Shown: positions 50,763 to 64,000 of the stretch, piece by piece | Position numbering within the stretch: the first letter of the stretch is position 1 | Layout: each line of letters opens with the position of its first letter | DNA from: Sinomonas humi | GTDB lineage: Bacteria > Actinomycetota > Actinomycetes > Actinomycetales > Micrococcaceae | NCBI RefSeq assembly: GCF_000802235.1 | Contig: NZ_JTDL01000002.1 | Coordinates: forward strand, 1-64,000 | DNA: 64,000 nt | Direction of reading: 5' to 3' | Made by a program: the position numbers and the translations under genes | Notes under the pieces: generated by a model | Database searches by the model: none | What the model was told of the DNA's origin: nothing | What the model saw: only the letters and a program-made list of their open reading frames with translations

Positions 50763-52613
50763 GCCGGCGTAGCGCTCCTCTCGTCCACTTTCGTGTTTTT
50801 GCATGTGTCCCGGATCGGTCCCCTGACTGCTCGAGCCCGGCAACGTCGGCGGAGGCGAGAAGTATTCATGGCCGGTGGGAGTGACGGTAACGATGTCCCC
50901 GCGGGTATCGTCTGGCCCCTCACTCCCGACCACATCCCGGCCCCAGCCCACCGATTCCTTCGCGTGATTGCACGCCTCGCACAGGCCTTGGCCGTTCTCG
51001 ACGCTCGTCTCCCCGCCGGACGCGACCGGCGTCACATGGTCGATGTGCCGAATCGGAGCCTCGCAGTAGGGTGTCCTGCAGACTTGGTCGCGGATCTCGA
51101 TGAACTCGGCGAGCGCCCGAGGGAACCGTCGCAACTTGGAATCCATCGCAGCCAGTTCCCCGGTGCTCGGATCAAGGTACAGGCGGCGGAGCCAAGCCCC
51201 TGCCAGGGAGGCAGCACCGGGAGTCGAGGCAGCACCGGGAGACACGGCAGCACCGGGAGCCGACCGCGCACCGGGAGACACGGCAGTACCGGGAGCCGAC
51301 CGCGCACCGGGAGACACGGCAGCACCGGGAGCCGACCGCGCACCGGGAGACACGGCAGTACCGGGAGCCGACCGCGCACCGGGAGACACGGCAGCACCGG
51401 GAGCCGACCGCGCACCGGGAGACACGGCAGCACCGGGAGCCGACCGCGCACCGGGAGACACGGCAGCACCGGGAGACATGCTGGCTGGCTGCAACGCGGT
51501 ACCTGAGCAGCTCGTTCCCTCGCCGTCCTCGCCGCCCTCCCCGGCCCCGCTTCCTGCTGCCTTGGACATCGAACCGGCAGCCGCGACAACCGTCGCTCTG
51601 GCCTGGCCAGCGGGGATCGTCCCGTACCCCTGAAGCAACGCAGGTTCACGCGCGCCTCCGAAGAGGGCGGAATCTGTCATCACCAGACCCACTCGCAGCG
51701 GCACGGCATCAGCTGTGGCCTGGCCTGTGACGCGCTCAACGAGAGTATCGGCTGCGATCTGCCCCGCTGTCCGCCGGTCCCCCGCCGTCCGCCGGTCCCC
51801 CGCAGCCCTCGCGGTCGCCCCGGCCGCCCTCAGGGCACCAGCCACGGCCGCCGCCTGCGCCACGGGAAGAATGGCGGTGAGTTGCGCCATGGAATCGGGA
51901 AGGCGTCGAACGGTGACCCTACGCTCCCCCTCGGCTTTGCGCACGCGGGCGAGGGCTGCGTCGTCGTCGATCGCATCCACAGCGGCACGAACCGCGTTCT
52001 GGATGCCCCTATCCCCCAAGCCTTCGAGACGGCGCGGATGGCTGGCGAGGTCCTCGTCAACGACGGACCGAGCACTCGGTGAGAGCACCTCGACGCCCTC
52101 GGCCACGAAGATTGCCCGCTCCTCATTGAGCTGGCCCGCCGCCAGCGCACGGAAGGTGTACGGCATCTCGCCCACAAGGCGCTTCGACATAGCAAGAAGT
52201 CGCGCCCCGCGCGCTGGCGACACTTTGCGGGCGAGGGCAACCTGAGCCGATGCGGAGCGCTCGCGCGTCCTCGCGACGCCTCGCCCCGTAGTGGACTCCA
52301 AAGCTGCGGCGCGAGGATCCATCCCCGCCTCGCACAATTCAGCGAAGACCACTTGCACCCTCGCCTGCTCAGCAGCGGCAGCCGCCTTCAACCGCTCGAG
52401 TGCGTCAAGGCGATCTATGAGATCTGGACCCGTCAGATGGTCCGACGCTACGCCGAGACCCAGGCGCGCCAGAAAAGAATTGATGTCCCTCGTCGATGGA
52501 CCTTCCGCCCTGTGCAAGAGGCCGCCGAGCGCAGCCCGCCAATCCTCGCGCGGCTGCCCGGCTTCGCGCGAGCCGACTTCAGCTAGACCAGCTGCATCCC
52601 CCATGCCCTCCAT
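50760..52613 (-). CDS. DUF222 / HNH endonuclease domain protein (13E12 type)
   Basis: A 617-residue protein. A DUF222 region (about 40-350) is followed by a low-complexity block of PGA-rich repeats (about 390-475) and then an HNH nuclease domain (about 505-560) with CRTPYCEAPIRHIDHVTP and LCEACNHAKE. The HNH residues are intact. This is the 13E12-repeat family, abundant in actinobacterial genomes. TAGGCT lies 6 nt before the ATG, with TTGTTT as -35 and an SOS box filling the spacer, so it is probably leaderless and DNA-damage inducible. The repeat block is coded by 36-bp units at about 51221-51480. Confidence 0.9.
   Translation of the reverse strand: MEGMGDAAGLAEVGSREAGQPREDWRAALGGLLHRAEGPSTRDINSFLARLGLGVASDHLTGPDLIDRLDALERLKAAAAAEQARVQVVFAELCEAGMDPRAAALESTTGRGVARTRERSASAQVALARKVSPARGARLLAMSKRLVGEMPYTFRALAAGQLNEERAIFVAEGVEVLSPSARSVVDEDLASHPRRLEGLGDRGIQNAVRAAVDAIDDDAALARVRKAEGERRVTVRRLPDSMAQLTAILPVAQAAAVAGALRAAGATARAAGDRRTAGDRRTAGQIAADTLVERVTGQATADAVPLRVGLVMTDSALFGGAREPALLQGYGTIPAGQARATVVAAAGSMSKAAGSGAGEGGEDGEGTSCSGTALQPASMSPGAAVSPGARSAPGAAVSPGARSAPGAAVSPGARSAPGTAVSPGARSAPGAAVSPGARSAPGTAVSPGARSAPGAAVSPGAASTPGAASLAGAWLRRLYLDPSTGELAAMDSKLRRFPRALAEFIEIRDQVCRTPYCEAPIRHIDHVTPVASGGETSVENGQGLCEACNHAKESVGWGRDVVGSEGPDDTRGDIVTVTPTGHEYFSPPPTLPGSSSQGTDPGHMQKHESGREERYAG
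51221..51480 (-). repeat. 36-bp in-frame minisatellite in the DUF222-HNH gene
   Basis: About six to seven near-identical 36-bp units (two 18-bp halves, with GCACCGGGAGACACGGCAG and GCACCGGGAGCCGACCGC). They encode repeated SPGARSAPGAAV in a spacer between DUF222 and HNH. Copies differ only at single positions (Ala/Thr), which points to recent expansion. Confidence 0.9.
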
Positions 52614-52619
52614 GGTCAG

Positions 52620-52648
52620 AGCCTATCGAATATGTGTTCGAAAAACAA
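52620..52648 (-). promoter_or_regulatory. SOS-box (LexA) promoter of the DUF222-HNH gene
   Basis: Reading the minus strand: -35 TTGTTT (52643-52648), 17-bp spacer, -10 TAGGCT (52620-52625), then 6 nt to the ATG. The spacer contains TCGAATATGTGTTCGA (52626-52641, plus-strand reading), which matches the actinobacterial LexA consensus TCGAAC-N4-GTTCGA with one change. A repressor bound there would block RNA polymerase. Confidence 0.8.
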
Positions 52649-52719
52649 ACAAGCAATCAAATAAGTATTCGACAAGCAGGCGGGTGAGCATAGGGAACAG
52701 GACCGGCGGAAGCGGAAGC

Positions 52720-54138
52720 CTAGTGATGGAAGGCCGGTGCATGTCCCGGGTCAGGGAACGGGGCATCGGCCGAATCGAGGAACTCGACCGCGTTGCGCAA
52801 GTCTTCGAGGAAGCTCGCCGCGAGATCCCGCGTAAAGCCATTGCGCACGACAATCCGCTGCACGGTCAGACCCTCGAGCCCGGCTGGCATGGGATACGCC
52901 GGTACGAGCCACCCCTCCATGCGAAGACGATCCGAGAGGTGGTGCAGGTTCCACTTGTCCGTGTGTCCCTCGCGCAGGCTCCAGGCGAAGACTGGGATAT
53001 CGGAACCGTCATTCCACAGCTCGAACGGCTCCATGGCCCCGATCTCCCGAGCCAAGTACTCAGCGACGTCACGGCACGCTGCGTGAACGGCCCGATACCC
53101 CTCGACCCCCAGCCGCAGGAACAGGTAGTACTGCAGGAGCACCTGGGCGCCCGGCCGGGAGAAGTTGAGAGCGAACGTGGGCATGTCGCCGCCGAGGTAG
53201 CTCACGTGGAACACAAGGTCCTCGGGCAATGCCTTTGTCTCCCGCCATACGACCCAACCGAGTCCCGGGTATACGAGCCCGTACTTGTGCCCCGAGGTGT
53301 TGATCGAGGCGACCCGCGGCAGCCGGAAGTCCCAGACGAGGTCGGGCTGGAGGAACGGAGCGATCATCGCCCCCGAGGCGCCGTCGACATGGATCGGAAC
53401 GTCGAGCCCAGTTGAGGCCTGAATCGCGTCGAGAGCCTCGGAGATCTTCTGCACGGGCTCGTACATTCCGGTGTACGTCACGCCCATGATCGCAACGACG
53501 CCGATCGTGTTCTCATCGACGTAGTCTTCGAGGCCGTGCCCGTCGAGCACGCGGTGCTCCTCGGAAATCGGCACGTAGCGCGCTTCGACCTCGAAGTAGT
53601 TGCAGAACTTCTCCCAGCACACCTGAACAGCGGAGCTCATGATGAGGTTTGGCCGCTCGGTCGGCTTCCCCGCTGCGCGCCGGGCCTGCTGCCAGCGGCG
53701 CTTGAGCGCAAGGCCCGCGAGCATGCACGCCTCGGAGGAACCGACCGTGGACGTGCCGATCGTGTCCCCGGGATCCGGTGCGTTCCAGAGGTCCGCGAGC
53801 ATACGCCAGCAGCGGTGCTCGATCTCCGCCGTCTTCGGGTACTCGTCGCGGTCGATCATGTTCTTGTCGACCGTCTCGGCATACAGCTTGCCGGCCTCGG
53901 GCTCCATCCAGGTCCCCACGAAGGTCGCGAGGTTGAGCCGAGCATTGCCGTCGAGCATCGCGTCGTCGTGGACGATCTGGTATGCCGTCGAGGGCAGGGA
54001 CTCGCCCTCCGGAACCGTGAAGCGTGGGAACACCGAAGCCTCGCCGGGCCGGCTGAACAGCGGGTTCAGCTCGACGTTGACCGACGTGTCGTTGTGAGAG
54101 GCGGGGGAATGGTGAGAAGCTCTGCTAGAGGCGGTCAC
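52720..54138 (-). CDS. gadB: Glutamate decarboxylase
   Basis: A 472-residue PLP enzyme of the GadA/GadB type that converts glutamate to GABA and CO2, consuming a proton. The cofactor residues are D252 in HVDGASGAMIAPF and lysine K285 in TSGHKYGLVYPGLGWVVWR. The C terminus ends in FHH, recalling the C-terminal histidine that closes the E. coli GadB active site at neutral pH. The start is GTG at 54138; TAGGGT lies 6 nt upstream (54145-54150), so its promoter overlaps the end of the enoyl-CoA hydratase gene. No GABA antiporter is adjacent; gabT at 5 kb could use the product. Confidence 0.93.
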   Translation of the reverse strand: MTASSRASHHSPASHNDTSVNVELNPLFSRPGEASVFPRFTVPEGESLPSTAYQIVHDDAMLDGNARLNLATFVGTWMEPEAGKLYAETVDKNMIDRDEYPKTAEIEHRCWRMLADLWNAPDPGDTIGTSTVGSSEACMLAGLALKRRWQQARRAAGKPTERPNLIMSSAVQVCWEKFCNYFEVEARYVPISEEHRVLDGHGLEDYVDENTIGVVAIMGVTYTGMYEPVQKISEALDAIQASTGLDVPIHVDGASGAMIAPFLQPDLVWDFRLPRVASINTSGHKYGLVYPGLGWVVWRETKALPEDLVFHVSYLGGDMPTFALNFSRPGAQVLLQYYLFLRLGVEGYRAVHAACRDVAEYLAREIGAMEPFELWNDGSDIPVFAWSLREGHTDKWNLHHLSDRLRMEGWLVPAYPMPAGLEGLTVQRIVVRNGFTRDLAASFLEDLRNAVEFLDSADAPFPDPGHAPAFHH

Positions 54139-54163
54139 GCGGCCACCCTACTCCCCCACCCGG

Positions 54164-54946
54164 TCACCTCCCTGAGAACAGCGGCTTCCGCTTCTCCTGG
54201 AATGCCTTGAACCCCTCCCGGTAGTCCGCCGAGTCGCACAGCGCGGCCTGCGCCTTGTTCTCGGCGTCCATCGACTCCCACAGCCCCAAGCGACGGTCGC
54301 GGATCTGCGCGACGAGCTCCTTGGACGCCATGTACGCGCCCGTGGCACCCCGGGCCACCCGGCGCACAGTCTCCCGCGTCCGCTCGAGGAGTTCGTCGGA
54401 CGGGAAGGCCCGGCTGAACAGCCCCGACCGCACCGCCTCGGCGCCGCTCATGAGGTCGCCCGTGTAGATGAGGTCGAGCGTGCGATGAAGGCCGAGCCGT
54501 TCGGTGAAGTACCAGTGGCCCCCCGAGTCGAGGGTCGCACCCAGATTGGCGAACGGCGAGCCGATCTTCGCGTTCTCGGCCACGTAGACGACGTCGGTCG
54601 CAAGCAGGAGCCCGAGTCCCACCCCGAGCGTGGCCCCCTGGGCGGCCGCGAAGGTCGGGGCAGGGAACGCTGCCATCTTATGCATGAGCGGCGTGACGAG
54701 CCCGCCGAGGTATCCGAGCACGTCGTCGTCCGCGGGGTCGACGCCGGAGATGTCCCGTCCCGCGCAGAAGGCGCGGCCCTCGCCGCGCAGGAGCAGCGCC
54801 CGCACCTCGCCGCGCGAGGCGGCGGCAGCGGCGTCGTCGTACGCCTGGGTGAGCTCGGCGAGCGCCTCGGGGTCGACGGCGTTGAGCTTCCCGGGTGCGT
54901 CGAGCACCACTTCGGCGATGTCGTCGGCGATGGTGAGCGAGATCAA
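54164..54946 (-). CDS. Enoyl-CoA hydratase/isomerase (phenylacetate pathway)
   Basis: A 260-residue crotonase-fold protein with the oxyanion-hole segment EGRAFCAGRDISG and GATLGVGLGLLLATDVV. The glutamate usual for hydration at the second position appears replaced in the SPFANLGATLDSGG region, where D/G residues stand, so an isomerase (PaaG-like) role is as likely as hydratase (PaaF). It follows paaE by 50 bp on the same strand. Confidence 0.83.
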   Translation of the reverse strand: MISLTIADDIAEVVLDAPGKLNAVDPEALAELTQAYDDAAAAASRGEVRALLLRGEGRAFCAGRDISGVDPADDDVLGYLGGLVTPLMHKMAAFPAPTFAAAQGATLGVGLGLLLATDVVYVAENAKIGSPFANLGATLDSGGHWYFTERLGLHRTLDLIYTGDLMSGAEAVRSGLFSRAFPSDELLERTRETVRRVARGATGAYMASKELVAQIRDRRLGLWESMDAENKAQAALCDSADYREGFKAFQEKRKPLFSGR

Positions 54947-54996
54947 GGATGGCTCCTCGTAGGGTCAGGCGTCATTTGGGTCAGGGCGTCATTGGG

Positions 54997-56178
54997 TCAG
55001 GCGTCGAAGTCGACAGACACGGCGTCCGAGGTGGGCCGGGACTGGCACGTCAGGACGTACCCGCGCTCAAGCTCGTCGGGTTCGAGGGCGTAGTTCTCGG
55101 CCATGTCGACGGTGCCCTTGACGAGTTTGGCACGGCACGTGCCGCACACGCCGCCGGCACACGCGAACGGGACATCCGGGCGCACACGCAAGGCCGCGTT
55201 GAGGATCGTCTCGTTCGCCGCGGCCGGGCTCTTGACGACCCCGGACAGGCCATCGAGACGGAACTCGATGTCGAAGTTCTTGCCCGATTCGTCCTCCACG
55301 ATGGGGCGCCCGATGTTCCCCTCGAGGTTGGTCGGCGTGCCCGTCGTGAAGAGCTCGAAGCGCACCTTCTCCGGCTCGACGCCCCGTGCCGCCAGCGTGT
55401 CCCGCACGAGCTGGACGAGTTCGAACGGCCCGCAGAGGAACCACTCGTCGACGTCGTCGGCGTGGATCACCGTGTTGAGCAGCGTGGTGAGCTTCTCGGC
55501 GTCGACCCGGCCCGAGAGCAGAGGCGAGATGCGCTGCTCTCGCGAGAGGACGTGGTGAAGCGCGAACCGCGAGGGGTACTTGTCCTTGAGGTCGGCGAGC
55601 TCCTCGACGAACATGACGTCCATCGCCGCCTTGTTCGCGTAGACCAAGTCGAAGCGGACGTTCTCGTTCGCCGCGAGGACCGTCTTCGCGATCGCGATGA
55701 CCGGCGTGATCCCCGAGCCCGCCGCGACCGCGACGAACGTGTGCTCGCGCTCGGTGTCGATGCTCGTCGGGTCGTTGAGGCCGGTCATCTTGTGCTTCGA
55801 GATGAAGGCACCGGCCGGGCTCATGACGTCGAGCGTGTCCCCTGGCGCGAGGTGCTCGTTGGCCCACGTCGAGAACACGCCACCGAGGTCCTTCTTGATC
55901 GCGACCCGGATCTCGCTGCTGCCGTCCTCGAAACGCTGCGGGACCGCGCAGATCGAGTAGCTCCGGCGGACCTCCGCGTCGCTGCCCGGCAGCTGGGCGC
56001 GCAGCGCGACGTACTGCCCAGGGATGTAGTCGTACTCGTCGGCGAGCGCGGGCGGGACGGCGAACGTCACCTCGATCGCGTCATTCGTGAGACGCCGCAC
56101 CTCGCTCACCTCGAGTGGGTGGAAGGACGCACGACGGCGCCCGGTCGCCTCGGCGCCCTCGGTCAGCTGGTCTGTCAT
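54997..56178 (-). CDS. paaE: Phenylacetyl-CoA epoxidase reductase subunit
   Basis: A 393-residue FNR-type reductase: FAD-binding domain (RRSYSICAVPQRF), NADPH domain (AAGSGITPVIAIAKTVL, FLCGPFELVQ) and a C-terminal plant-type [2Fe-2S] ferredoxin domain with CAGGVCGTC and a later CQSRP cysteine. It hands electrons to the di-iron epoxidase PaaAC. The ATG at 56178 is set by homology. It lies 20 bp after paaD. Confidence 0.93.
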   Translation of the reverse strand: MTDQLTEGAEATGRRRASFHPLEVSEVRRLTNDAIEVTFAVPPALADEYDYIPGQYVALRAQLPGSDAEVRRSYSICAVPQRFEDGSSEIRVAIKKDLGGVFSTWANEHLAPGDTLDVMSPAGAFISKHKMTGLNDPTSIDTEREHTFVAVAAGSGITPVIAIAKTVLAANENVRFDLVYANKAAMDVMFVEELADLKDKYPSRFALHHVLSREQRISPLLSGRVDAEKLTTLLNTVIHADDVDEWFLCGPFELVQLVRDTLAARGVEPEKVRFELFTTGTPTNLEGNIGRPIVEDESGKNFDIEFRLDGLSGVVKSPAAANETILNAALRVRPDVPFACAGGVCGTCRAKLVKGTVDMAENYALEPDELERGYVLTCQSRPTSDAVSVDFDA

Positions 56179-56198
56179 AGGGAGCACCTCGAAGTCAT

Positions 56199-56684
56199 TT
56201 ACAGCACCTTGAAGTAGTCGAAGGGTTCGTGGCAGTCCTGGCACACGTAGAGCGCCTTGCAGGACGTCGAGCCGAAGCGGGAGAGCTCGCGGGTGTTGAG
56301 CGAGTGGCAGCGGGGGCACTTGACGGCTAGGCCGAGCCGGATGGGACCGGCGGCAGCGTGACCCGTCGGAGGCGCGATCCCGTACTCCTCGAGCTTGGCC
56401 TTGCCCTCCTCGGTCATCCAGTCAGTGGTCCACGCTGGAGAGAGGACGAGATCGACCACGACCTTCTCGTACCCGGCGTCGTGGAAGACGCGCTGAAGGT
56501 CGTCGCGGATCGCGTCCATCGCAGGGCAGCCCGAATAGGTCGGGGTGATGGTGAGGCGGACGGTGCCGTCGGCGTCAACGCGCCCGTCCCGGAGGATCCC
56601 GAGGTCCCGGATGCTCAGCACGGGAATCTCGGGGTCGTTCACGGTCGCGGCGAGGGCGACGACGTCGTCATCGGTCCTGATCAC
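56199..56684 (-). CDS. paaD: Phenylacetyl-CoA epoxidase maturation protein PaaD
   Basis: A 161-residue protein with a MIP18-like (DUF59) domain: VNDPEIPVLSIRDLGIL and TPTYSGCPAMDAI. A C-terminal zinc ribbon follows (CPRCHSLNTRELSRFGSTSCK, CQDC), with four cysteines visible. PaaD is thought to help assemble the iron-sulfur or di-iron centres of the epoxidase. It lies between paaC and paaE. Confidence 0.92.
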   Translation of the reverse strand: MIRTDDDVVALAATVNDPEIPVLSIRDLGILRDGRVDADGTVRLTITPTYSGCPAMDAIRDDLQRVFHDAGYEKVVVDLVLSPAWTTDWMTEEGKAKLEEYGIAPPTGHAAAGPIRLGLAVKCPRCHSLNTRELSRFGSTSCKALYVCQDCHEPFDYFKVL

Positions 56685-56695
56685 GGAAGGCTCCT

Positions 56696-57565
56696 CTACC
56701 AGGTTGCGCCCGGGTGCTTGCGGGCGAGCACCTGCATCTCGGCGAGCAGGTAGCCGAGGTGCTCGGTGTGCTCGCCCCGGCGGCCGCCGCCGCTTGCGCG
56801 GGGAACTGCGGGCAAGGCGAGCGTTGCCTCATCGAGGACGGCACGGATCTCGGCGTCGAACTCGCCGCGGAGCGTTGAGGGGCGCACGCCGGCATCTCCG
56901 ACCCGCTCGGTCAGCTCGTCGTCGTCGAACAGCTCATCCACGTAAGGCCACATGAGCTCGATCGCCGCCTGCATGCGGCGGTGGGATTCGTCGGTGCCGT
57001 CGCCGAGGCGGAGCGTCCACTGGATCGCGTGGTCCCGGTGGTAGTCGACCTCTTTGAGCGCCTTCGCCGCGATCGCGGCGATCGTGCTGTCGGCCGATTC
57101 CACGAGCCGCGAATAGAGCAGACGCTGGTAGATGGCGACGACGAGCTGCCGCGCGATCGTCACCCCGAAATCGCCGTTCGGCTGCTCGAAGATCCATGCG
57201 GAACGGAACTCGTCCTCCTCGCGCCAGTACGCGAGGTCGTCCTCGGTCTTGCCCCACGCGTGGCCCGCGTAGGTGAGGAACGAGCGGGCGTGGCCGAGGA
57301 GGTCGAGCGCGATGTTGCCGAGAGCGATGTCCTCCTCGATCTCCGGCCCGCGCGAGATCCAATGGCCGAGCCGCTGCGCGAGGATGAGCGAATCGTCCCC
57401 GAGTCGCAGCGCGTACTGCGCGACGTCCTCGCTGGGGCGCACCGTCTGGATCGCGATGTCCTCAGGGCGAAGCGCATTGCCGGGGGTCACCCGAGTGGCC
57501 GACGCCGCGGCGTCGCCGAAGCTGTCGAGGGAGTGGTCTGCATGGGCAGGCGTAGGCGCATTCAC
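56696..57565 (-). CDS. paaC: Phenylacetyl-CoA epoxidase subunit PaaC
   Basis: A 289-residue ferritin-like structural partner of PaaA: DDSLILAQRLGHWISRGPEIEEDIALGNIALDLLG-type helices and KALKEVDYHRDHAIQW. The GTG at 57565 overlaps the paaB stop by 4 nt. The first 30 residues are a poorly conserved tail. It forms the core of the multicomponent epoxidase. Confidence 0.92.
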   Translation of the reverse strand: MNAPTPAHADHSLDSFGDAAASATRVTPGNALRPEDIAIQTVRPSEDVAQYALRLGDDSLILAQRLGHWISRGPEIEEDIALGNIALDLLGHARSFLTYAGHAWGKTEDDLAYWREEDEFRSAWIFEQPNGDFGVTIARQLVVAIYQRLLYSRLVESADSTIAAIAAKALKEVDYHRDHAIQWTLRLGDGTDESHRRMQAAIELMWPYVDELFDDDELTERVGDAGVRPSTLRGEFDAEIRAVLDEATLALPAVPRASGGGRRGEHTEHLGYLLAEMQVLARKHPGATW

Positions 57566-57882
57566 AGGTGCTTCACGCCCTCGCTCTTCGTGTAGTACGT
57601 CGCGTGCCGGTAGTCCTTGCCCTGAGGAGACTCGAAGAACGAGCCCTTCGCGTCCGGGTCGGACGCCATGATCGCCTCGGACGGCACGACCCAGATCGAG
57701 ACTCCCTCGTTCCGACGCGTGTACAGGTCGCGGGCGTTGCGCAGCGCCATCTCCGCATCGGGCGCGTGGAGCGAGCCGGCATGGACGTGGGAGAGGCCGC
57801 GGCTCGAACGGACGAAGACCTCCCAGAGGGGCCAGACGTTGGCCTGCTGGCCCGCTGCCTGGCCTTCGTTCTCCTGGCTCAT
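57562..57882 (-). CDS. paaB: Phenylacetyl-CoA epoxidase subunit PaaB
   Basis: A 106-residue protein with the typical core WPLWEVFVRSSRGLSHVHAG and ALRNARDLYTRRNEGVSIWV. PaaB holds the PaaAC complex together. Its ATG overlaps the paaA stop by one base, and its stop overlaps the paaC start. Confidence 0.93.
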   Translation of the reverse strand: MSQENEGQAAGQQANVWPLWEVFVRSSRGLSHVHAGSLHAPDAEMALRNARDLYTRRNEGVSIWVVPSEAIMASDPDAKGSFFESPQGKDYRHATYYTKSEGVKHL

Positions 57883-58901
57883 CACGCCGCACCTGCCTTC
57901 TGCATCTGCTTCTCGCGCTGCTTCCCTGCGTAAGCGCGTGCCGCCTCGCGCACCCACGCACCGTTCGCGTGGGCCTCGCGGCGCCGCGCAAGACGCTGGG
58001 CATTGCACGGGCCGCGGCCCGCGATGACGTCCTTGAATTCCTGCCAGTCGAGCTCCATGTGGATCCACTTGCCCGTCTCCTCGTCGAACCGGAGCTCCGG
58101 GTCGGGGAGAGTGAGCCCGAGGACCTTGACCTGCTCCGCGATCATCCCGACGAAGCGCTGGCGCAGCTCGTCGTTGGAGAACCGCTTGATGTTCCAGGCC
58201 ATGGACTGCTTCGAGTTGGGCGAATCGTCGTCCGGGGGCCCGAACATCATGAGTGCGGGCGCGTAGAAGCGGTTGACGGCGTCCTGCGCCATCTCCTTCT
58301 GCTCGGGTGTGCCGTGGGAGAGCTCGAGAAGGATCTCGAAGCCCTGCCGCTGGTGGAACGACTCCTCCTTGCAGATGCGCACCATCGCACGTCCGTAGGG
58401 GCCGTAGCTTGCCCGGCACAGCGGGACCTGGTTCGCGATCGCAGCGCCGTCGACGAGCCAGCCGATCGCGCCCATATCCGCCCAGCTGCGAGCCGGATAG
58501 TTGAAGATCGAGGAGTATTTGGCCTTGCCGTCCAGCAGCTGCTGGTTCAGGACGTCGCGGGGCGTGCCGAGCGTCTCGGCAGCGGAGTAGAGGTAGAGCC
58601 CGTGGCCCGCCTCGTCCTGGACCTTCGCCATGAGGATCGACTTGCGCTTGAGGCTCGGGGCGCGCGTGATCCAGTTGGCCTCCGGCTGCATTCCGATGAT
58701 CTCTGAGTGCGCATGCTGGGAGATCTGCCGCGTGAGCGTCTTGCGGTACGCCTCCGGCATCCAGTCCTTGGGTTCGATGCGGGAGTCGTCAGCGATGATG
58801 CGGTCAAAATATGCCTGGCCAGCGCGGGTCTCTGGGGACACGGATGCGTCCTGGTCCTCAGGTCGCGGCGCGGGCACGGACTGCAGGGGTGCAGCTGCCA
58901 T
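57882..58901 (-). CDS. paaA: Phenylacetyl-CoA epoxidase catalytic subunit PaaA
   Basis: A 339-residue ferritin-like di-iron oxygenase subunit. Iron-ligand motifs are seen in [17 protein letters not shown] and [13 protein letters not shown] (E-x-x-H type). It epoxidises the ring of phenylacetyl-CoA with O2. A good GAGGAGG precedes the ATG at 58901. It is the first gene of paaABCDE; paaK, paaZ and a PaaR regulator are not in this window. Confidence 0.95.
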
Positions 58902-58920
58902 AGCTCCTCCTCAAATAATT

Positions 58921-58941
58921 ACCGACCGTTCGTTCAGAATA
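58921..58941 (-). promoter_or_regulatory. Candidate PaaR operator and -10 box of the paa operon
   Basis: ACCGACCGTTCGTT (58921-58934) is an imperfect palindrome like the TetR-type PaaR sites (ACCGACC/GGTCGGT half-sites) reported before paa operons. It lies directly downstream of a -10-like TATTCT (minus strand, 58936-58941), where a repressor would block transcription. Confidence 0.5.
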
Positions 58942-59037
58942 TGTGGACGGGCGGATAGGCGTCAAGCCGTCCGTGCCAGCCACGGAGGCACTCGCACGGC
59001 CGCCCTCCGTGCTCTTCTCCCCTGCTACCTTCGCCGC

Positions 59038-59880
59038 ATGGCCCCCCACCGGCAGCGAAAGACGATGCCCACCTGGCTGCGTTTCGTGGCCCATGCCTTG
59101 GTGGCCCTCCTCGTGGTCTCGCTCGTTCAGGCATTCTTCGTGAAGCTCTATCGCGTGCCTTCCGCCTCCATGGAACCAACGCTCCACGGCAGCCCTCGCG
59201 GCGGCGACTGGATCCTCGCCGACCGCCTCTCCATGCGGCTCGGCAACGCGCCCGCGGTGGGCGACGTCGTCGTCGTGGTCCGGCCAGCGGGATGGGACGG
59301 AGAGAGGAGCGACGACGGCGCTCCTTCCGGCGGGGGCGCTCCTGCCAGCGGCGGCGCTCCTGCCAGCGGCGGCGCTCCTGCCGGCGACGGCGCTCCTGCC
59401 AGCGGCGGCGCACCTGCCAGCGCCCCACCTTCCAGCGGCGGCCTCCCCGAGTGGATTGGCAACGCGGCGCGGGTCTTCGGGGATGTCACGGGCATCGGGC
59501 CCACGAGTCAGAGCTATCTCGTCAAGCGGATCGTCGCCCAGGGTGGCCAGACGATTGCGTGCTGCGACGCGGCGGGCCGGCTCGAGCGTGACGGCCTCGG
59601 CGTCGACGAACCGTACGTCGCGCTCGACCTTCCCTTCGTGCCCGGTCGGCTCGACTGCACGACGACGCCGCGTTCCTCCCGCTGCTTCCGCGCCTTCAAG
59701 GTCCCAGAGGGCGAGCTCGTGCTGCTCGGCGACCACCGCTCGGCGTCCGCCGACTCGTCGCTGGCCTGCCGGGTCCCATCCGCGCCGGATCCCTGCATGC
59801 GGACGGTGCCAGCCTCGGCGGTTGTCGGGCGGGTAGCCCTTCGCATCTGGCCCATTTGGCGGATCGGGGTGCTAGCGTGA
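59038..59880 (+). CDS. lepB: Type I signal peptidase
   Basis: A 280-residue membrane protease with one N-terminal membrane segment (about 15-36), the nucleophile S44 in PSASMEPTLHG, the lysine general base K163 in YLVKRIVAQGG and the late box GELVLLGDHRSASADS. It removes signal peptides at the outer face. Between boxes lies a Gly/Ala/Pro-rich insert (about 94-130) encoded by an 18-bp minisatellite. TACCTT (59026-59031) lies 6 nt before the ATG, indicating a leaderless transcript. It is probably a specialised paralogue given its place beside envelope genes. Confidence 0.92.
   Translation: MAPHRQRKTMPTWLRFVAHALVALLVVSLVQAFFVKLYRVPSASMEPTLHGSPRGGDWILADRLSMRLGNAPAVGDVVVVVRPAGWDGERSDDGAPSGGGAPASGGAPASGGAPAGDGAPASGGAPASAPPSSGGLPEWIGNAARVFGDVTGIGPTSQSYLVKRIVAQGGQTIACCDAAGRLERDGLGVDEPYVALDLPFVPGRLDCTTTPRSSRCFRAFKVPEGELVLLGDHRSASADSSLACRVPSAPDPCMRTVPASAVVGRVALRIWPIWRIGVLA
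59317..59424 (+). repeat. 18-bp minisatellite in lepB
   Basis: Six tandem 18-bp units with consensus GGCGCTCCTGCCAGCGGC, encoding GAPASG repeats. They lie in a surface loop between the catalytic serine and lysine boxes, where such an insert is tolerated. Confidence 0.9.
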
Positions 59881-59884
59881 AGCG

Positions 59885-60580
59885 ATGAGCGACGGAACTC
59901 CTTTCCGCATCCTCACCGTCTGCACCGGGAACATCTGCAGGTCTCCTCTGGCCGAGCGGCTGCTTCAGTCCGGCCTCGACGAGGCAGCCCCAGGGGTTTT
60001 CAGCGTCACGAGTGCCGGCGTTCGAGCGCTTGCGGGGCAGCCAGCCCATCCAAGGTCAGCGGAGATCGCCGAGCGGCTCGGCTCGAGCCTCGAGGCGTTC
60101 GAAGCCCAGCAGCTCGCGCAGCAGCACGTAGCGGAGGCAGACCTCGTGCTGATCATGGCCGAGGAGCACCGCGGTCCGCTCCTGGCGGTCTCCCCCTCGG
60201 CCCTCAAGCGCACGTTCACCCTGCGCGAGTTCGCCCGCCTCATCGAGATCCTGCCCGGTCCCTCGACACGGGAGAGCGTGCAGGACGCGTGGCGGCGGTA
60301 TGTGGCCGACGGCGACAAGATCCGCCATCAGGTGCGCCTCGACGAGCCTGGCCTCAACGACGTCGCCGACCCCTTCGGACTCGATGCCTCCGCCTACGAT
60401 CGCATGGCCGAGGAGCTCGTTCCGGCCGTCAGCACCCTGATCCGTGCCGCCCTTCCCCGCCGGCGTCGCCGTGCACTCTCCGGCGAGAGCCGCGCCGCGC
60501 TGCGGGAAGCAGAACGACGTCAGCTCGCCGAGCGCCTGCCCCTGAACGCGGGCACGGGCTCAGGGGCCGAAGACGCCTGA
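59885..60580 (+). CDS. Low-molecular-weight protein tyrosine phosphatase
   Basis: A 231-residue enzyme with the active-site loop CTGNICRSP (nucleophile C13, R19) and a likely general-acid aspartate in DVADPFG. The C terminus has an Arg/Glu-rich tail of about 50 residues beyond the usual 150-180. Wzb-type members dephosphorylate BY-kinases in polysaccharide export systems. TAGCGT (59873-59878) lies 6 nt before the ATG, so it may be leaderless even though it follows lepB by only 4 bp. Its last 61 bp overlap the end of the facing tyrosine-kinase gene. Confidence 0.9.
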   Translation: MSDGTPFRILTVCTGNICRSPLAERLLQSGLDEAAPGVFSVTSAGVRALAGQPAHPRSAEIAERLGSSLEAFEAQQLAQQHVAEADLVLIMAEEHRGPLLAVSPSALKRTFTLREFARLIEILPGPSTRESVQDAWRRYVADGDKIRHQVRLDEPGLNDVADPFGLDASAYDRMAEELVPAVSTLIRAALPRRRRRALSGESRAALREAERRQLAERLPLNAGTGSGAEDA

Positions 60581-62046
60581 CCTCCCCCTTGTCCTCCTTG
60601 TCGTGCCTTGCGGCGATCGGGTCCGCTCGGGTACGTGCCGTAGTAGCCGTAGCCGTACGTGTCCGGCCCCTTGGGCGGGACGCAATTGAGGATGACGCCG
60701 AGGACCCGCCCGCGCACGCGCCCCAGATTCCCGAGCGCCCGCTGGAGACTGTCCGTCGTCGTCTTGCGCGCCCGCGCGACCACGAGCGTGCCGTCCGCCG
60801 CCCGGGAGAGGACCGCCGCGTCGGTGACTGGCAGGAGCGGCGGGGTGTCGATGAGCACGACGGCCCGCTCTGAGAGCTCCTCGAGGAGATGCTGCATCGC
60901 CCGCGATCCCAGCAGCTCTGACGGGTTCGGCGGGATACGCCCCGCGGCCAGGATCTTGAGCTGGGGCATGGGCCCCCACTCCTGAAGGACCTCGTCGATG
61001 CTCGCCCGGCCGGTCAGGATGTCGGTCATGCCGACGTCGCCGATCACGCCGAAGACCTTGTGCGCTGTCGGCCTGCGAAGGTCGGCGTCGACGACGATGA
61101 CCTCCTCGCCCGCGGCGGCAATGGTTGCCGCAAGGTTCCCGATGACAGTGGACTTGCCCTCGGACGGCAGCGAGCTGGTGACCAGGAGCACCCGCGGCGG
61201 GCTGTCGACGTCGATGAAGTGCAGATTCGTCCGCAGTTCCCGGAGCGCCTCGCCCATCGCGTGCCCAGCGCCGGTCCCGTGCAGGTCGAGGACCCGTGTC
61301 TCGCCGACGAGGCGTTTGTCCCGCGGGAGCGTTCCCACGACGGGCACCCGGAAGCGCCTCTCGATCTCGGCGGCCGCACGGATGCGGCGGTCGAGGAGAT
61401 TGCGCACGAGCGCATAGCCGAAGCCGAGAACCAGGCCGCCTGCAGCGCCAGCGCCGAGCGCGAGCCGAAGGTTCGGAGAGATGGGCGAGGTCGGGACCGT
61501 GGCCTTCGCTAGCGGCACGACCTTCGTGGCAGGTTCGGAGCCCGTGCTCGACATCGATTTCTCGATCTCGTAGACCTGCGCCGCGAGGGCCGAAACCCAC
61601 GCATCCGCGACCTCCTTCGCCTGCACAGGGTTGGCGGAAGTGGCGACGACCTGGAGCTCGGACGAATCGACCGGGACCGTGACTTTGACCGTGCCCGCGA
61701 TCGCCTGAGGCGAGGTGCTCAGGCCGAGGTCCTTGACGACGCGCTCGGCCACGAGGAGCGAGTCCGCGAGCGAGCGGTAGCTCTTCGCCTTCGACTTCGA
61801 GAGGTTGTCCCCAGCGAGGGAGAGGTTGAGGTTCTCCGAGCCGCCGGTCACGACCATCCCGTTCGACTGCGCCTCGTAGACGCGGGGCTGCACGAGGTAC
61901 CAGCCGAAGGCGCCGGCCGTCGCGACCGCCGCAAAGAGCAGGATCCCGAGCCAATACCTTCGGGCCACCGAGAGGTAGTCCGCGAGGCTCATGCCCTGCC
62001 GATCCGCGGCGTTGTCGTCTAGGAATGAATTTTGCACAAGGTTCAT
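60520..62046 (-). CDS. BY-type tyrosine kinase with Wzz-like chain-length domain
   Basis: A 508-residue fusion. The N-terminal Wzz domain has two membrane segments (about 33-52 and 194-214). The cytoplasmic kinase domain has Walker A SSLPSEGKST (291-300), Walker A' VVVDADLRRP (317-326) and Walker B VVLIDTPP (396-403). A C-terminal tyrosine cluster YGYGYYGTY (464-472) is the likely autophosphorylation site. Such proteins control polysaccharide chain length and export. It lies 17 bp after the HprK-like gene and is its probable operon partner. Confidence 0.9.
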   Translation of the reverse strand: MNLVQNSFLDDNAADRQGMSLADYLSVARRYWLGILLFAAVATAGAFGWYLVQPRVYEAQSNGMVVTGGSENLNLSLAGDNLSKSKAKSYRSLADSLLVAERVVKDLGLSTSPQAIAGTVKVTVPVDSSELQVVATSANPVQAKEVADAWVSALAAQVYEIEKSMSSTGSEPATKVVPLAKATVPTSPISPNLRLALGAGAAGGLVLGFGYALVRNLLDRRIRAAAEIERRFRVPVVGTLPRDKRLVGETRVLDLHGTGAGHAMGEALRELRTNLHFIDVDSPPRVLLVTSSLPSEGKSTVIGNLAATIAAAGEEVIVVDADLRRPTAHKVFGVIGDVGMTDILTGRASIDEVLQEWGPMPQLKILAAGRIPPNPSELLGSRAMQHLLEELSERAVVLIDTPPLLPVTDAAVLSRAADGTLVVARARKTTTDSLQRALGNLGRVRGRVLGVILNCVPPKGPDTYGYGYYGTYPSGPDRRKARQGGQGGGQASSAPEPVPAFRGRRSAS

Positions 62047-62063
62047 CTAAACCCCGGCCCACC

Positions 62064-63287
62064 TCAGCTCCGTGTGAGCACTCCGTAGTCAACCAGTAGC
62101 TCGACCGCGCGTGAGAGTGCCTCCTCGTGACCGGACGGGAGCCCCACCTCCGGCGCAATCCGCGCGGCGAGGTCCTCGAACCTGGCTGGCGAGCCCACGG
62201 CGCGCCAGAGCGCCGGGACGATTCCACCGAGCCGAAGGACCCGCTGGCCGACCATCACGAGCAGCTCGCTCCCTCCCCCGGGGATCGCGATCTCGACGGC
62301 GTCGACAACGTCGCCCCGGCGCAGATGGCCGGGCGCCGCCGAACCCGGCGGCAGGCAACCCGGCGGCAGGCAACCCGGCGGCAGGCAACCCGGCGGCAGG
62401 TCGCCGTCGTCCGCTCGGGGGAGAGGCACGACGGCGGGGGCCCACCCTCCCGCGACGGGCGGACGGGCAAGGAGGCCGGGGATGAGGCCCGCGAGGTCCT
62501 CGGCCTCCCTGTAGGCGACGCTCACGCCGCCACCGCACGCGTCGAGGAGCTCGCAGAGCAGCTGGAGTGGGCGGCGCAGCTTCCCGAGGGACGAAGTGTG
62601 CGGCGCGAGCCCGACGATGGCCTCAGCATGACTGAGCGGGCGCACCTCTGCTGCGCGCCCGCTTCCGGCCGGCGAACGCTCACGCTCGAGGAGGACGACG
62701 GCGCCGAGGCTCCCCGGGGTCGGCGCGGCGCGCAGCCCGAGCGCGTCGGGACCGAGCTGTCGTTTCGGGTCCGGCGGCTCGTCGACGATGACCGAGAGCG
62801 GCTTCGGATACGGGACGACCGAGCCGCCTGGTTCGATGCCGACCGTCTCGTCACTCACGTAGCCCAGGCCACGGGCGAGCACGCGGGTAGCGGTCGTCTT
62901 GCCGATTCCGGACGGCCCCACGAGCGCTGCGGTGCGGCCCGTGCGCGGATCCGAGAGGCCAGAGGCGTGCAGCATGAGCAGCTCGCCGCCCCGCTGCTCG
63001 ATCGCGGCCAAGGTCAGGGCGCTCGTGAGCTCTGCAGCGAAGCCCTCGAAGGTCACGCCCGAGACCGGTACGACGGCGGCGCCCCGCAGGATCCGCGCGC
63101 GGAAGGGCGGCGTGCTGCCATCGTCATCGACCGGGCTGTTGCGACCCGTGCTGGTGCAGTCAATGGCCAGGTCCTCCCCCTCCTCGAGGCACCTCGACCA
63201 GGCTCGGCGCAGCTCGGCCCGCTGGGCAGCGCTCACCCCCGAGTCGAAGATGACCGATACGGACGCACCCAGGATCCGGAGCCTCAC
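62064..63287 (-). CDS. HprK-like P-loop kinase with PqqD-like C terminus
   Basis: A 407-residue protein. The centre has an HprK-related P-loop ALVGPSGIGKTTATRVLA (G124-T132) followed by YVSDETVGI with acidic D146-E147. The C-terminal 75 residues (QRVLRLGGIVPALWRAVG to LLVDYGVLTRS) read like a second PqqD-type winged helix. Between them is a PPGCL repeat (about 298-315) encoded by a 15-bp minisatellite. It is not a true HPr kinase. HprK-related proteins paired with PqqD-family proteins are known computationally (the HPr-rel-A type, as I recall) but not biochemically. Its start overlaps the PqqD stop by 4 nt. Confidence 0.72.
   Translation of the reverse strand: MRLRILGASVSVIFDSGVSAAQRAELRRAWSRCLEEGEDLAIDCTSTGRNSPVDDDGSTPPFRARILRGAAVVPVSGVTFEGFAAELTSALTLAAIEQRGGELLMLHASGLSDPRTGRTAALVGPSGIGKTTATRVLARGLGYVSDETVGIEPGGSVVPYPKPLSVIVDEPPDPKRQLGPDALGLRAAPTPGSLGAVVLLERERSPAGSGRAAEVRPLSHAEAIVGLAPHTSSLGKLRRPLQLLCELLDACGGGVSVAYREAEDLAGLIPGLLARPPVAGGWAPAVVPLPRADDGDLPPGCLPPGCLPPGCLPPGSAAPGHLRRGDVVDAVEIAIPGGGSELLVMVGQRVLRLGGIVPALWRAVGSPARFEDLAARIAPEVGLPSGHEEALSRAVELLVDYGVLTRS
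62344..62403 (-). repeat. 15-bp minisatellite in the HprK-like gene
   Basis: Four tandem units of CCCGGCGGCAGGCAA (62344-62403, the last diverged at its end), encoding PPGCL repeats with regularly spaced cysteines. Confidence 0.9.
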
Positions 63288-63577
63288 CGCGTGCTCTCCC
63301 GTGCCGGCTGCTCCACGAGCCCCTGCTCGGCGAGCTGGCCGAGGAATGCGGCGAGCTGCACTTCGAGATCGGATGGCGCCTCCGTCCCATACTCGTCACG
63401 CAGTTCGGCGAGTATGTCGCCCTCGCTGCGGACGCCGTCGACAAGGGACCAGATCACCATCGCCGAACCCTTCAGGACAAGAGGCCGGTTCGCGCGGAGA
63501 TTGAGCAACGCGACCCATTCGCCTCCGTGCCCGAGGACCTCGGCAACCAAGCCACTTCTGCGCCAGATCGGCATCAT
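63284..63577 (-). CDS. PqqD-family protein
   Basis: A 97-residue winged-helix protein with the PqqD pattern LNLRANRPLVLKGSAMVIWSLVDG and a helical C terminus (SDLEVQLAAFLGQLAEQGLVE). PqqD proteins bind and present peptides to modifying enzymes, but PqqD-like proteins also occur in polysaccharide clusters. The ATG at 63577 has GGAAGGG just upstream; the open frame continues 31 codons further to an ATG pair at 63670. It is translationally coupled to the HprK-like gene. Confidence 0.82.
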   Translation of the reverse strand: MMPIWRRSGLVAEVLGHGGEWVALLNLRANRPLVLKGSAMVIWSLVDGVRSEGDILAELRDEYGTEAPSDLEVQLAAFLGQLAEQGLVEQPARESTR

Positions 63578-63668
63578 TTCCCTTCCGCCAAAACCGTCGA
63601 ACGACTCCCAGCCAGCCGTCAGGGCACACTGATACTGCCCGCCGCCCAGCCACGAAAAGTGAGACATC

Positions 63669-64000
63669 ATGACCGCGTCCGCCCCGCCGACCCGTTCGAG
63701 AAGGAAGAGGAAGCGAACGGCTGCGTTCGTCCTGCTGGGTGCCCTGCTCGTCGTCGTTCTCGCCGCCGTGGCCGCAATTGTCTATCTGGGCAGTCTCTCC
63801 CAGAGCTTCGACACCAACACCAAGAAGATCCCGAACGCGTTCCCCCAGGAATCATCTCGCCCTGCGGAGCCGGCTCCGGGGCCGGACGGCAAGCGGCCGG
63901 TGAACATCCTGCTCGTCGGTTCCGACAGCCGCGGCGCCACCGGCGCGATCGCGGAGTCGGGGGCGCCATCGGACCAGCGCTCCGACACCATGATGCTCGT
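63669..64000 (+). CDS. LytR-CpsA-Psr (LCP) family protein, N-terminal part
   Basis: The gene runs off the right edge; 110 codons are visible. A basic start (RSRRKRKR) leads to one membrane segment (about 19-41), then a Pro-rich stretch and the beginning of the LCP domain with NILLVGSDSRG (79-89) and RSDTMMLV. LCP enzymes attach polysaccharides or teichoic acids to peptidoglycan outside the membrane. Its ATG overlaps, on the other strand, the ATG of the possible longer PqqD frame. Confidence 0.9.
   Translation, partial: MTASAPPTRSRRKRKRTAAFVLLGALLVVVLAAVAAIVYLGSLSQSFDTNTKKIPNAFPQESSRPAEPAPGPDGKRPVNILLVGSDSRGATGAIAESGAPSDQRSDTMML

Follow-up and report, generated by a model that had tools for sequence, protein, structure and literature searches.

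A cassette of PqqD and HprK-related kinase-like genes in Actinomycetota and its predicted link to a leader on exported proteins

What a PqqD-family protein and an HprK-like protein might do together amongst cell-envelope genes is the question raised by a stretch of the Sinomonas humi genome (contig NZ_JTDL01000002.1, positions 1 to 64,000; this whole stretch of 64,000 nucleotides is called the window below). Near its right end, the gene for a discrete PqqD-family protein (pqqD) overlaps the gene for an HprK-related, kinase-like protein by 4 nt (GTGA), and 17 bp separate the stop codon of the latter from the start of a gene for a bacterial tyrosine kinase (BY-kinase). A first-pass annotation of the window took these genes for a peptide- or protein-directed Ser/Thr kinase module feeding polysaccharide assembly, and missed two partners, a nucleotidyltransferase of family PF14907 and a 30-residue leader. 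Taking these into account, and judging from sequence, it appears rather probable that the cassette is part of a system in which RiPP recognition elements (RREs; RiPP, ribosomally synthesized and post-translationally modified peptide) guide a kinase and a nucleoside triphosphate (NTP) transferase to mark a leader serine on several exported proteins.

The leader and its association with the kinase-like gene

A hunt for a conserved precursor gene showed that exported and otherwise unrelated proteins, whose genes precede pqqD or follow the kinase-like gene, share a 30-residue N-terminal stretch, RRx6AWxxPx[ILV]x6Px4S. The mature parts of the leader proteins in the window's genome differ, and the leader can therefore be regarded as a module. 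The sample consisted of 80 of 105 confirmed loci in named genomes together with the window's own, 81 loci in all. An earlier, stricter pattern matched at two of the 81 and was then loosened; the loosened pattern, run on six-frame translations, asked for two residues of R, K or Q, [WY]xxP and then a 12-residue hydrophobic stretch. It thus constrained W+5 to W+16 (counting from the tryptophan) by mean hydrophobicity alone and left W+17 free. After removal of two unrelated matches (L099 and L110, one protein with the stretch NNQDAGYASP), 42 leaders remained at 37 of the 81 loci. The aromatic residue is Trp in all 42, although Tyr was permitted, and W+17 is Ser in 41 and Thr in one. Within the hydrophobic stretch, W+12 is Pro in 41, and W+5 is I, L or V in all 42, residues that the hydrophobicity filter favours. 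Twin arginines lie at W-9 in every one of the 42, a position that the pattern, with its two R/K/Q residues, did not require. In 29 leaders from the genomes of relatives (30 loci less L185, a weak match in genome G054 with an early stop), W+17 is Ser without exception. An AxA sequence ends one or two residues before this site in 39 of the 42 locus leaders and in 26 of the 29 from relatives; one leader (L179, genome G051) has no AxA and keeps its W+17 Ser. A rough check of how often Ser follows AxA (6 of 175 hydrophobic stretches at N termini) was not relied on, because the set is full of membrane helices. The leader looks like a twin-arginine (Tat) export signal, basic residues and hydrophobicity having been requirements of the pattern. 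None of six leader proteins exceeded the cut-off of any NCBIfam model. Inspected by eye, the other small conserved open reading frames (ORFs) amongst the groups listed were for the most part antisense frames or pieces of known genes.

The placing of leader genes links them to the cassette. Of the 27 leaders examined that share the strand of the kinase-like gene, 11 belong to genes whose stop codon lies -3 to +26 bp from the start of a discrete pqqD (starts being first in-frame start codons), and such operons read leader-pqqD-hprK-BY-kinase(-PF14907). Among the 150 leader matches listed, 48 lie no more than 10 kb from a kinase-like gene, where about one would be expected. Arrays of four to six leader matches occur near the HprK-like gene in three genomes (G342:C3:367093-374259, G256:C16:73866-76997 and G369:C13:100299-102557), and as many as 12 matches occur in one genome (G302). 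The window's own genome encodes four leader proteins of 198 to 540 residues at dispersed positions (Table 1). One of them, of 217 residues, resembles the kinase-adjacent leader proteins of the Arthrobacter loci L071-L073, both by eye and in sharing the same weak Pfam match. The pattern gave no match beside the cassette in this genome (window positions 52000-64000 and 10 kb beyond).

The presence of the leader across genomes follows that of the kinase-like protein closely. A 30-position leader profile (A4) was built from 22 leaders hand-chosen for diversity, the Thr-bearing L102 being left out, and genomes were called kinase-positive at E<1e-30 amongst 58 relatives (15 of 34 matching genomes) and at E<=1e-40 amongst 297 genomes of the order (58, after 9 of 67 matching genomes were dropped). 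For many of the 297, part of the candidates was scored (6 each for the kinase-like protein, up to 27 for the leader). The leader was found in 15 of 15 kinase-positive relatives and in two of 43 kinase-negative ones (G045 and, weakly at E 0.004, G054); within the window's genus the figures are 8 of 8 and 0 of 7. Across the order, 53 genomes have both, 5 the kinase-like protein alone, 5 the leader alone and 234 neither (Fisher 1e-46, ignoring relatedness), and by genus (94) the counts are 21, 1, 0 and 72. In a phylum-wide sample of 198 genomes the leader occurs in two, both kinase-positive, and it is therefore not a common export signal; this scarcity, with its absence from the seven kinase-negative genomes of the genus, rules out a generic Tat signal.

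The second partner behaves similarly. A PF14907 nucleotidyltransferase is encoded in 15 of 15 kinase-positive relatives versus 3 of 43 negative ones, and in 51 of 58 versus 39 of 239 across the order; many of the 39 kinase-negative carriers have longer, higher-scoring members, which may serve other systems. PF14907 proteins also form a cluster present at 36 or more of the 81 loci. The window's genome has one member, on another contig than the cassette, with glycosyltransferase-like and polymerase-like genes (by eye) as neighbours. A 138-residue ORF without a Pfam match (L168 9303-9719) lies before it on the same strand.

The binding and kinase-like domains and the proposed mechanism

The discrete PqqD protein passes the PF05402 model (43.1 bits, cut-off 23.4), and its profile (A2) has known RREs as nearest solved relatives: the lasso peptide RRE TbiB1 (5v1u, 4.7e-8), LppB (9x8z, 2.5e-5) and PbaB1 (9x90, 4.6e-5). 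The PqqD structures of pyrroloquinoline quinone synthesis rank lower (5sxy, 2.1e-4; 5vrd, 0.0018; 3g2b, 0.025). Where the Tyr-binding LppB has Asp (D70) and the Trp-preferring PbaB1 has Gln (Q79; PMC13381572), the window protein has Gln, as do 14 of 18 others (15 of 19 distinct PqqD proteins in all). It is thus predicted to be an RRE that binds the WxxP leader.

The kinase-like protein has a good P-loop (GPSGIGKT, residues 124-131), as first annotated. Across 43 family sequences H107, G127, G129, K130, T132, D146, E147, K162 and P163 are invariant, and a KPLS segment is invariant or nearly so. From their positions, H107, K130, D146 and E147 would be the catalytic His, the P-loop Lys and the acidic pair, the second acid being Glu rather than Asp. 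HprK-related kinase A (TIGR04352) is matched at E<=0.001 by 37 of the 43, which goes against an ordinary unrelated GTPase, the outcome that would have refuted the first-pass annotation. Its cut-off (200 bits) is reached in none of the 198 phylum-wide genomes; the same scan returned 39 of the 198, many through other HprK relatives or short P-loop matches. PADLOC gave two weak P-loop matches and nothing else.

A second PqqD domain had also been suspected at the C terminus of the kinase-like protein. At the level of the family this is supported: PF05402 is matched by 10 of the 43 members (best 1.9e-14, the position within the protein not being given by the table), and the C-terminal part of a 13-member profile matches the RREs LppB (9x8z, 1.2e-4), TbiB1 (0.0016) and PbaB1 (0.0049). 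The window protein by itself has no Pfam match in its C-terminal region. In several genomes (G051, G397, G256, G486, G466 and others) the kinase-like and RRE parts are seemingly split into neighbouring frames, with a stop codon inside the first profile match and a match to the C-terminal part beside it (order-wide scan).

From these features we infer a sequence of steps. In the cytosol, the shared leader would be held by two RREs, PqqD and the domain at the C terminus of the HprK-like protein, and the HprK-like domain would phosphorylate the Ser (rarely Thr) 17 residues past the Trp. The PF14907 nucleotidyltransferase would then add a nucleotidyl or sugar group onto the phosphate, as has been proposed for PsmN. 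The twin-arginine-like leader would export the protein and a type I signal peptidase would cut beside the Ser, and the modified Ser would therefore be the N terminus of the mature protein, or close to it. The adjacent signal peptidase I, which we take to be of the Ser/Lys type from its SASM...LVKRI, is a candidate for this cleavage. The mark may tie the leader proteins, or adapt them, to the cell's polysaccharide, a purpose suggested by the envelope setting of the cassette, with its BY-kinase, LytR-CpsA-Psr (LCP) protein and priming glycosyltransferase. A wider reading is possible, but we hold it only tentatively: that the leader is a RiPP-style export signal, that it directs the cytosolic kinase and nucleotidyltransferase onto the future N-terminal Ser of several secreted proteins, and that many actinomycetes thus carry surface proteins whose N terminus is phospho-linked and possibly sugar- or polysaccharide-bearing. 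Such protein marking or capsule anchoring would follow a logic like that of sortase or exosortase, but at the N terminus and before export.

Several observations weigh against an RRE-guided kinase acting on the leader. The window's HprK-like protein itself misses TIGR04352 at E<=0.001, and the matches of this protein to solved structures are dominated by the P-loop similarity of ABC transporters. At the second discriminating pocket position (Gly42 in PbaB1, Asn33 in LppB), the PqqD proteins have neither residue. The discrete PqqD clusters in at least 20 of the 81 loci (a single cluster, hence a lower bound), PF05402 is not found at E<=0.001 in one kinase-positive relative (G027) and is found in some of the kinase-negative relatives, and PF14907 is not found at E<=0.001 in 7 of the 58 kinase-positive order genomes. 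None of the four leader genes of the window's genome is near its cassette. Five genomes (G045, G301, G315, G328 and G446) carry the leader with no kinase-like match, all candidates having been scored, and five kinase-positive genomes of the order lack a leader match; candidate explanations for the former are relics, other enzymes or a kinase-independent role of the leader. Finally, the Ser is part of the leader profile, and relatedness makes the genomes non-independent as samples, with some species present in both collections.

Of the alternatives, the one that survives best makes the HprK-like protein a non-phosphorylating ATPase, which with the RREs forms a chaperone or proofreading pair for special exported proteins, the W+17 Ser being a cleavage-site preference. 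Maturation chaperones are known to hold Tat signals, and the regular twin arginines at W-9 and AxA before the Ser count in its favour; RREs are binding domains, and the kinase activity here is a prediction. Against it stand the invariant HprK-type residues (His, Lys, Asp, Glu), the co-occurrence of PF14907, which fits a modification path, and the leader without AxA, which keeps its Ser. We regard this alternative as rather unlikely.

Another explanation keeps closer to the first-pass annotation, in that the kinase-like protein would serve polysaccharide assembly, its target being the BY-kinase, a glycosyltransferase, a lipid carrier or a sugar, and the leader proteins would merely share a capsule lifestyle. 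The neighbours recurring at the 81 loci (below) favour it, as does the BY-kinase as immediate neighbour in the window. However, the leader and the kinase-like protein co-occur far more tightly than a shared lifestyle suggests, leader genes abut pqqD in 11 loci, and the leader bears a known RRE-binding motif, PqqD domains being binders of peptides. This explanation is accordingly given little weight. The first-pass annotation is probably wrong about the substrate, a role in polysaccharide assembly being unproven; leader-bearing exported proteins are the candidates with the best links.

A RiPP system, with a short peptide product cleaved from the leader proteins in the manner of lasso or linear polyphosphorylated peptide (LPP) clusters, would have the core enzymes of the LPP systems (RRE, HprK-like kinase, NTP transferase and nearby signal peptidase). 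It is improbable given the sizes of the four leader proteins in the window's genome, of which one has an RCC1 match over the cut-off, one a weaker RCC1-like match and one a weak Ig-like match. That the protein is an ordinary HPr kinase/phosphorylase or an unrelated GTPase is scarcely credible: a profile that includes remote HprK_rel proteins does match the HPr kinases 1ko7 (3.1e-7), 1knx (1.5e-5) and 1jb1 (6.9e-5) over 60-80 residues, with ABC transporters and RecA scoring equally or better, mostly around the P-loop, but there is the extra C-terminal RRE-like domain, most of the family match HprK-related kinase A, and the window protein alone has no match to any HprK family including Pfam HprK.

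The RRE-guided system that we prefer keeps the first-pass idea of a kinase-like module that has PqqD domains and is directed at peptides or proteins; sequence comparisons support such a module, and it is conserved elsewhere and linked to envelope genes. If it is correct, RRE-guided phosphorylation extends from small peptides of Bacillota to whole secreted proteins of Actinomycetota, and the trio of HprK-related protein, PqqD and nucleotidyltransferase gains a predicted substrate, site and specificity determinant; its function would be open to direct test by one mass-spectrometry experiment.

The locus and its neighbourhood

The gene arrangement first annotated in the window, including the overlap and gap given above and the BY-kinase, signal peptidase, phosphatase and LCP genes, is borne out by coordinates and profile matches (Table 1). 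The low-molecular-weight protein-tyrosine phosphatase (LMW-PTP) gene is convergent with that of the BY-kinase and the two ORFs overlap; the pqqD frame has an alternative upstream start at 63670. An in-frame repeat within the HprK-like gene encodes LPPGC units, possibly a length-variable linker that joins the RRE part to the kinase-like part. Tandem repeats, of 18 bp and 54 bp (59316-59440), also occur in the signal peptidase I gene, where they encode Gly-Ala-Pro-Ala-Ser-rich units. The left neighbour (54997-58901) is presumably a phenylacetate-degradation (paa) operon, by resemblance, and relatives of its genes border the cassette elsewhere in Sinomonas and at some loci of Arthrobacter. The assembly comprises 4.4 Mb in 156 contigs.

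Table 1. Coordinates of the cassette, its neighbours and the partner genes in the Sinomonas humi genome (unprefixed positions are those of the window)
Feature	Position	Strand	Remarks
Signal peptidase I (SASM...LVKRI)	59065-59880	+	PF10502, 75.1 bits
LMW-PTP	59885-60580	+	PF01451, 90.4 bits
BY-kinase / polysaccharide co-polymerase	60520-62046	-	Tyr-rich tail DTYGYGYYGTYPSG; TIGR01007, 163.5 bits (cut-off 108.05)
HprK-related kinase-like gene	62064-63287	-	407 residues; GTG start; C-terminal RRE-like domain
Perfect in-frame 15-bp tandem repeat	62342-62400	-	3.9 copies; LPPGC units; inside HprK-like gene
pqqD, discrete PqqD-family protein	63284-63577	-	97 residues; ATG start; PF05402; predicted RRE
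LCP protein, divergent	63669-64000	+	Continues to ~64718 beyond the window (L002 1670-2719); PF03816, 162.3 bits
PF14907 nucleotidyltransferase	C88:228759-229649		56.5 bits
Leader protein 1	C88:246078-246674		198 residues; beside priming glycosyltransferase (PF02397) and epimerase-like genes; ~16 kb from PF14907 gene
Leader protein 2	C88:135983-137482		499 residues; weak RCC1-like match, 4.7e-9
Leader protein 3	C65:3489-5111		540 residues; RCC1 over cut-off
Leader protein 4	C60:53884-54537		217 residues; weak Ig-like match

The loci come from Arthrobacter, Pseudarthrobacter, Rathayibacter, Microbacterium, Herbiconiux, Phycicoccus, Flexivirga, Tessaracoccus and other genera. Clustering of their proteins placed a BY-kinase at 60 or more of the 81 loci, an LMW-PTP at 33 or more, a priming glycosyltransferase and a VanZ-like protein each at 20 or more, a signal peptidase at 17 or more and an LCP protein at 13 or more; these, like the count for the nucleotidyltransferase of about 306 residues given above, are lower bounds because divergent copies land in other clusters. 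One representative per cluster scored over the cut-off of PF14907, PF02397, PF04892, PF01451, PF10502, PF05402 or PF03816, and the BY-kinase representative matched Wzz and AAA_31. Seven further loci of the genus (G009, G006, G010, G007, G002, G014 and G003) largely preserve the sequence LCP / PqqD / HprK-like / BY-kinase / tyrosine phosphatase / signal peptidase; gene picking did not pick up the phosphatase in G002, nor in G010 the discrete PqqD, which was found via PF05402. Because this gene order largely recurs in seven loci, and because 58 of the 297 order genomes carry the kinase-like family, the cassette is more than a chance arrangement. PF05402 is present in 14 of the 15 kinase-positive relatives versus 7 of the 43 others, and the pairing of the two proteins on which the first-pass annotation depended is thus seen in other genomes. 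That annotation also looked to the neighbourhood for a conserved partner gene: in relatives there is one, whilst to the right of position 64000 none was seen, and no glycosyltransferase cluster was noticed in the 18 kb right of the cassette, where the ORFs were inspected by eye.

Comparison with known systems

The first-pass annotation knew of no biochemical function for HprK-related proteins of this kind, but functions are on record. The HprK homologues of lasso peptide clusters, PadeK, ThcoK, SyanK and PsmK, phosphorylate a C-terminal Ser of the precursor and require a His-Lys-Asp-Asp motif (PMC8498205, PMC9266682), and PsmK with PsmN offers a precedent in which a hexose is added after phosphorylation (PMC9266682). 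In the LPP systems, LppK acts on a linear precursor core, phosphorylating its Ser3 (PMC13381572). In the open-access literature, judged largely from titles and the starts of abstracts and with subscription journals mostly outside the search, no description was found of the leader or of its link with PqqD, HprK-like and PF14907 proteins.

The HPr-rel-A system, defined by the NCBIfam models TIGR04352 and TIGR04353 (PqqD chaperone), is matched by most of the kinase-like family, and amongst NCBIfam models the discrete PqqD protein matches TIGR04353 best; both families here score below the curated cut-offs (25.9 bits versus 35 for PqqD). With the HPr kinase/phosphorylases (1ko7, 1jb1, 1knx), the present protein shares the chain of His, P-loop and acidic pair, in an alignment with remote HprK_rel proteins, as well as the profile match, but it has no Pfam match and an additional RRE-like domain. 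The lasso clusters provide an HprK homologue, an RRE (B1) and, in PsmN, a nucleotidyltransferase gene. They differ in that their kinases accompany a cyclase and a B2 protease and act at the C terminus of the precursor, whereas the candidate Ser here follows the leader, and in having His-Lys-Asp-Asp where the present family has invariant His, Lys, Asp and Glu.

The closest likeness is to the LPP systems (LppA/B/K/N/S), in which a discrete RRE, an HprK-like kinase, an NTP transferase, a SipW-like signal peptidase and a transporter are encoded at capsule loci of Bacillota; LPPs and paeninodins are stated to be restricted to that phylum (PMC13381572). At polysaccharide loci here, too, lie genes for a discrete RRE, an HprK-like kinase, an NTP transferase and a signal peptidase. 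Discrete RREs bind [Y/W]xxPx[LVIFA] in lasso and LPP precursors, and the LPP consensus YxxPxVLxHQxIxFETxxS places Ser3 of the core 18 residues past the Tyr (PMC13381572); the leader found here is also of the aromatic-xxP kind, with its conserved Ser at 17. In contrast to the LPP systems, the present one is found in Actinomycetota, its leader is a WxxP within a twin-arginine-like export signal rather than the LPP consensus (no search was aimed at the LPP motif itself), and its kinase-like protein carries a fused second RRE-like domain. The signal peptidase beside the cassette (the adjacent one only) is presumably not of the Ser-His-Asp kind of the SipW-like LppS, and no MsbA-like exporter was noticed by eye beside the cassette, the genome not having been searched for one. 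Because the leader consensus and the type of the adjacent peptidase differ, the present system is not classed with the LPPs. What is new here is the Actinomycetota setting, an apparent export signal that doubles as leader and a predicted service to several whole secreted proteins, dispersed in the genome, which suggests a marking of secreted proteins that has gone unrecognised. Up to the phosphorylation step, the cassette probably works much as the LPP systems do, but with clients that include whole exported proteins.

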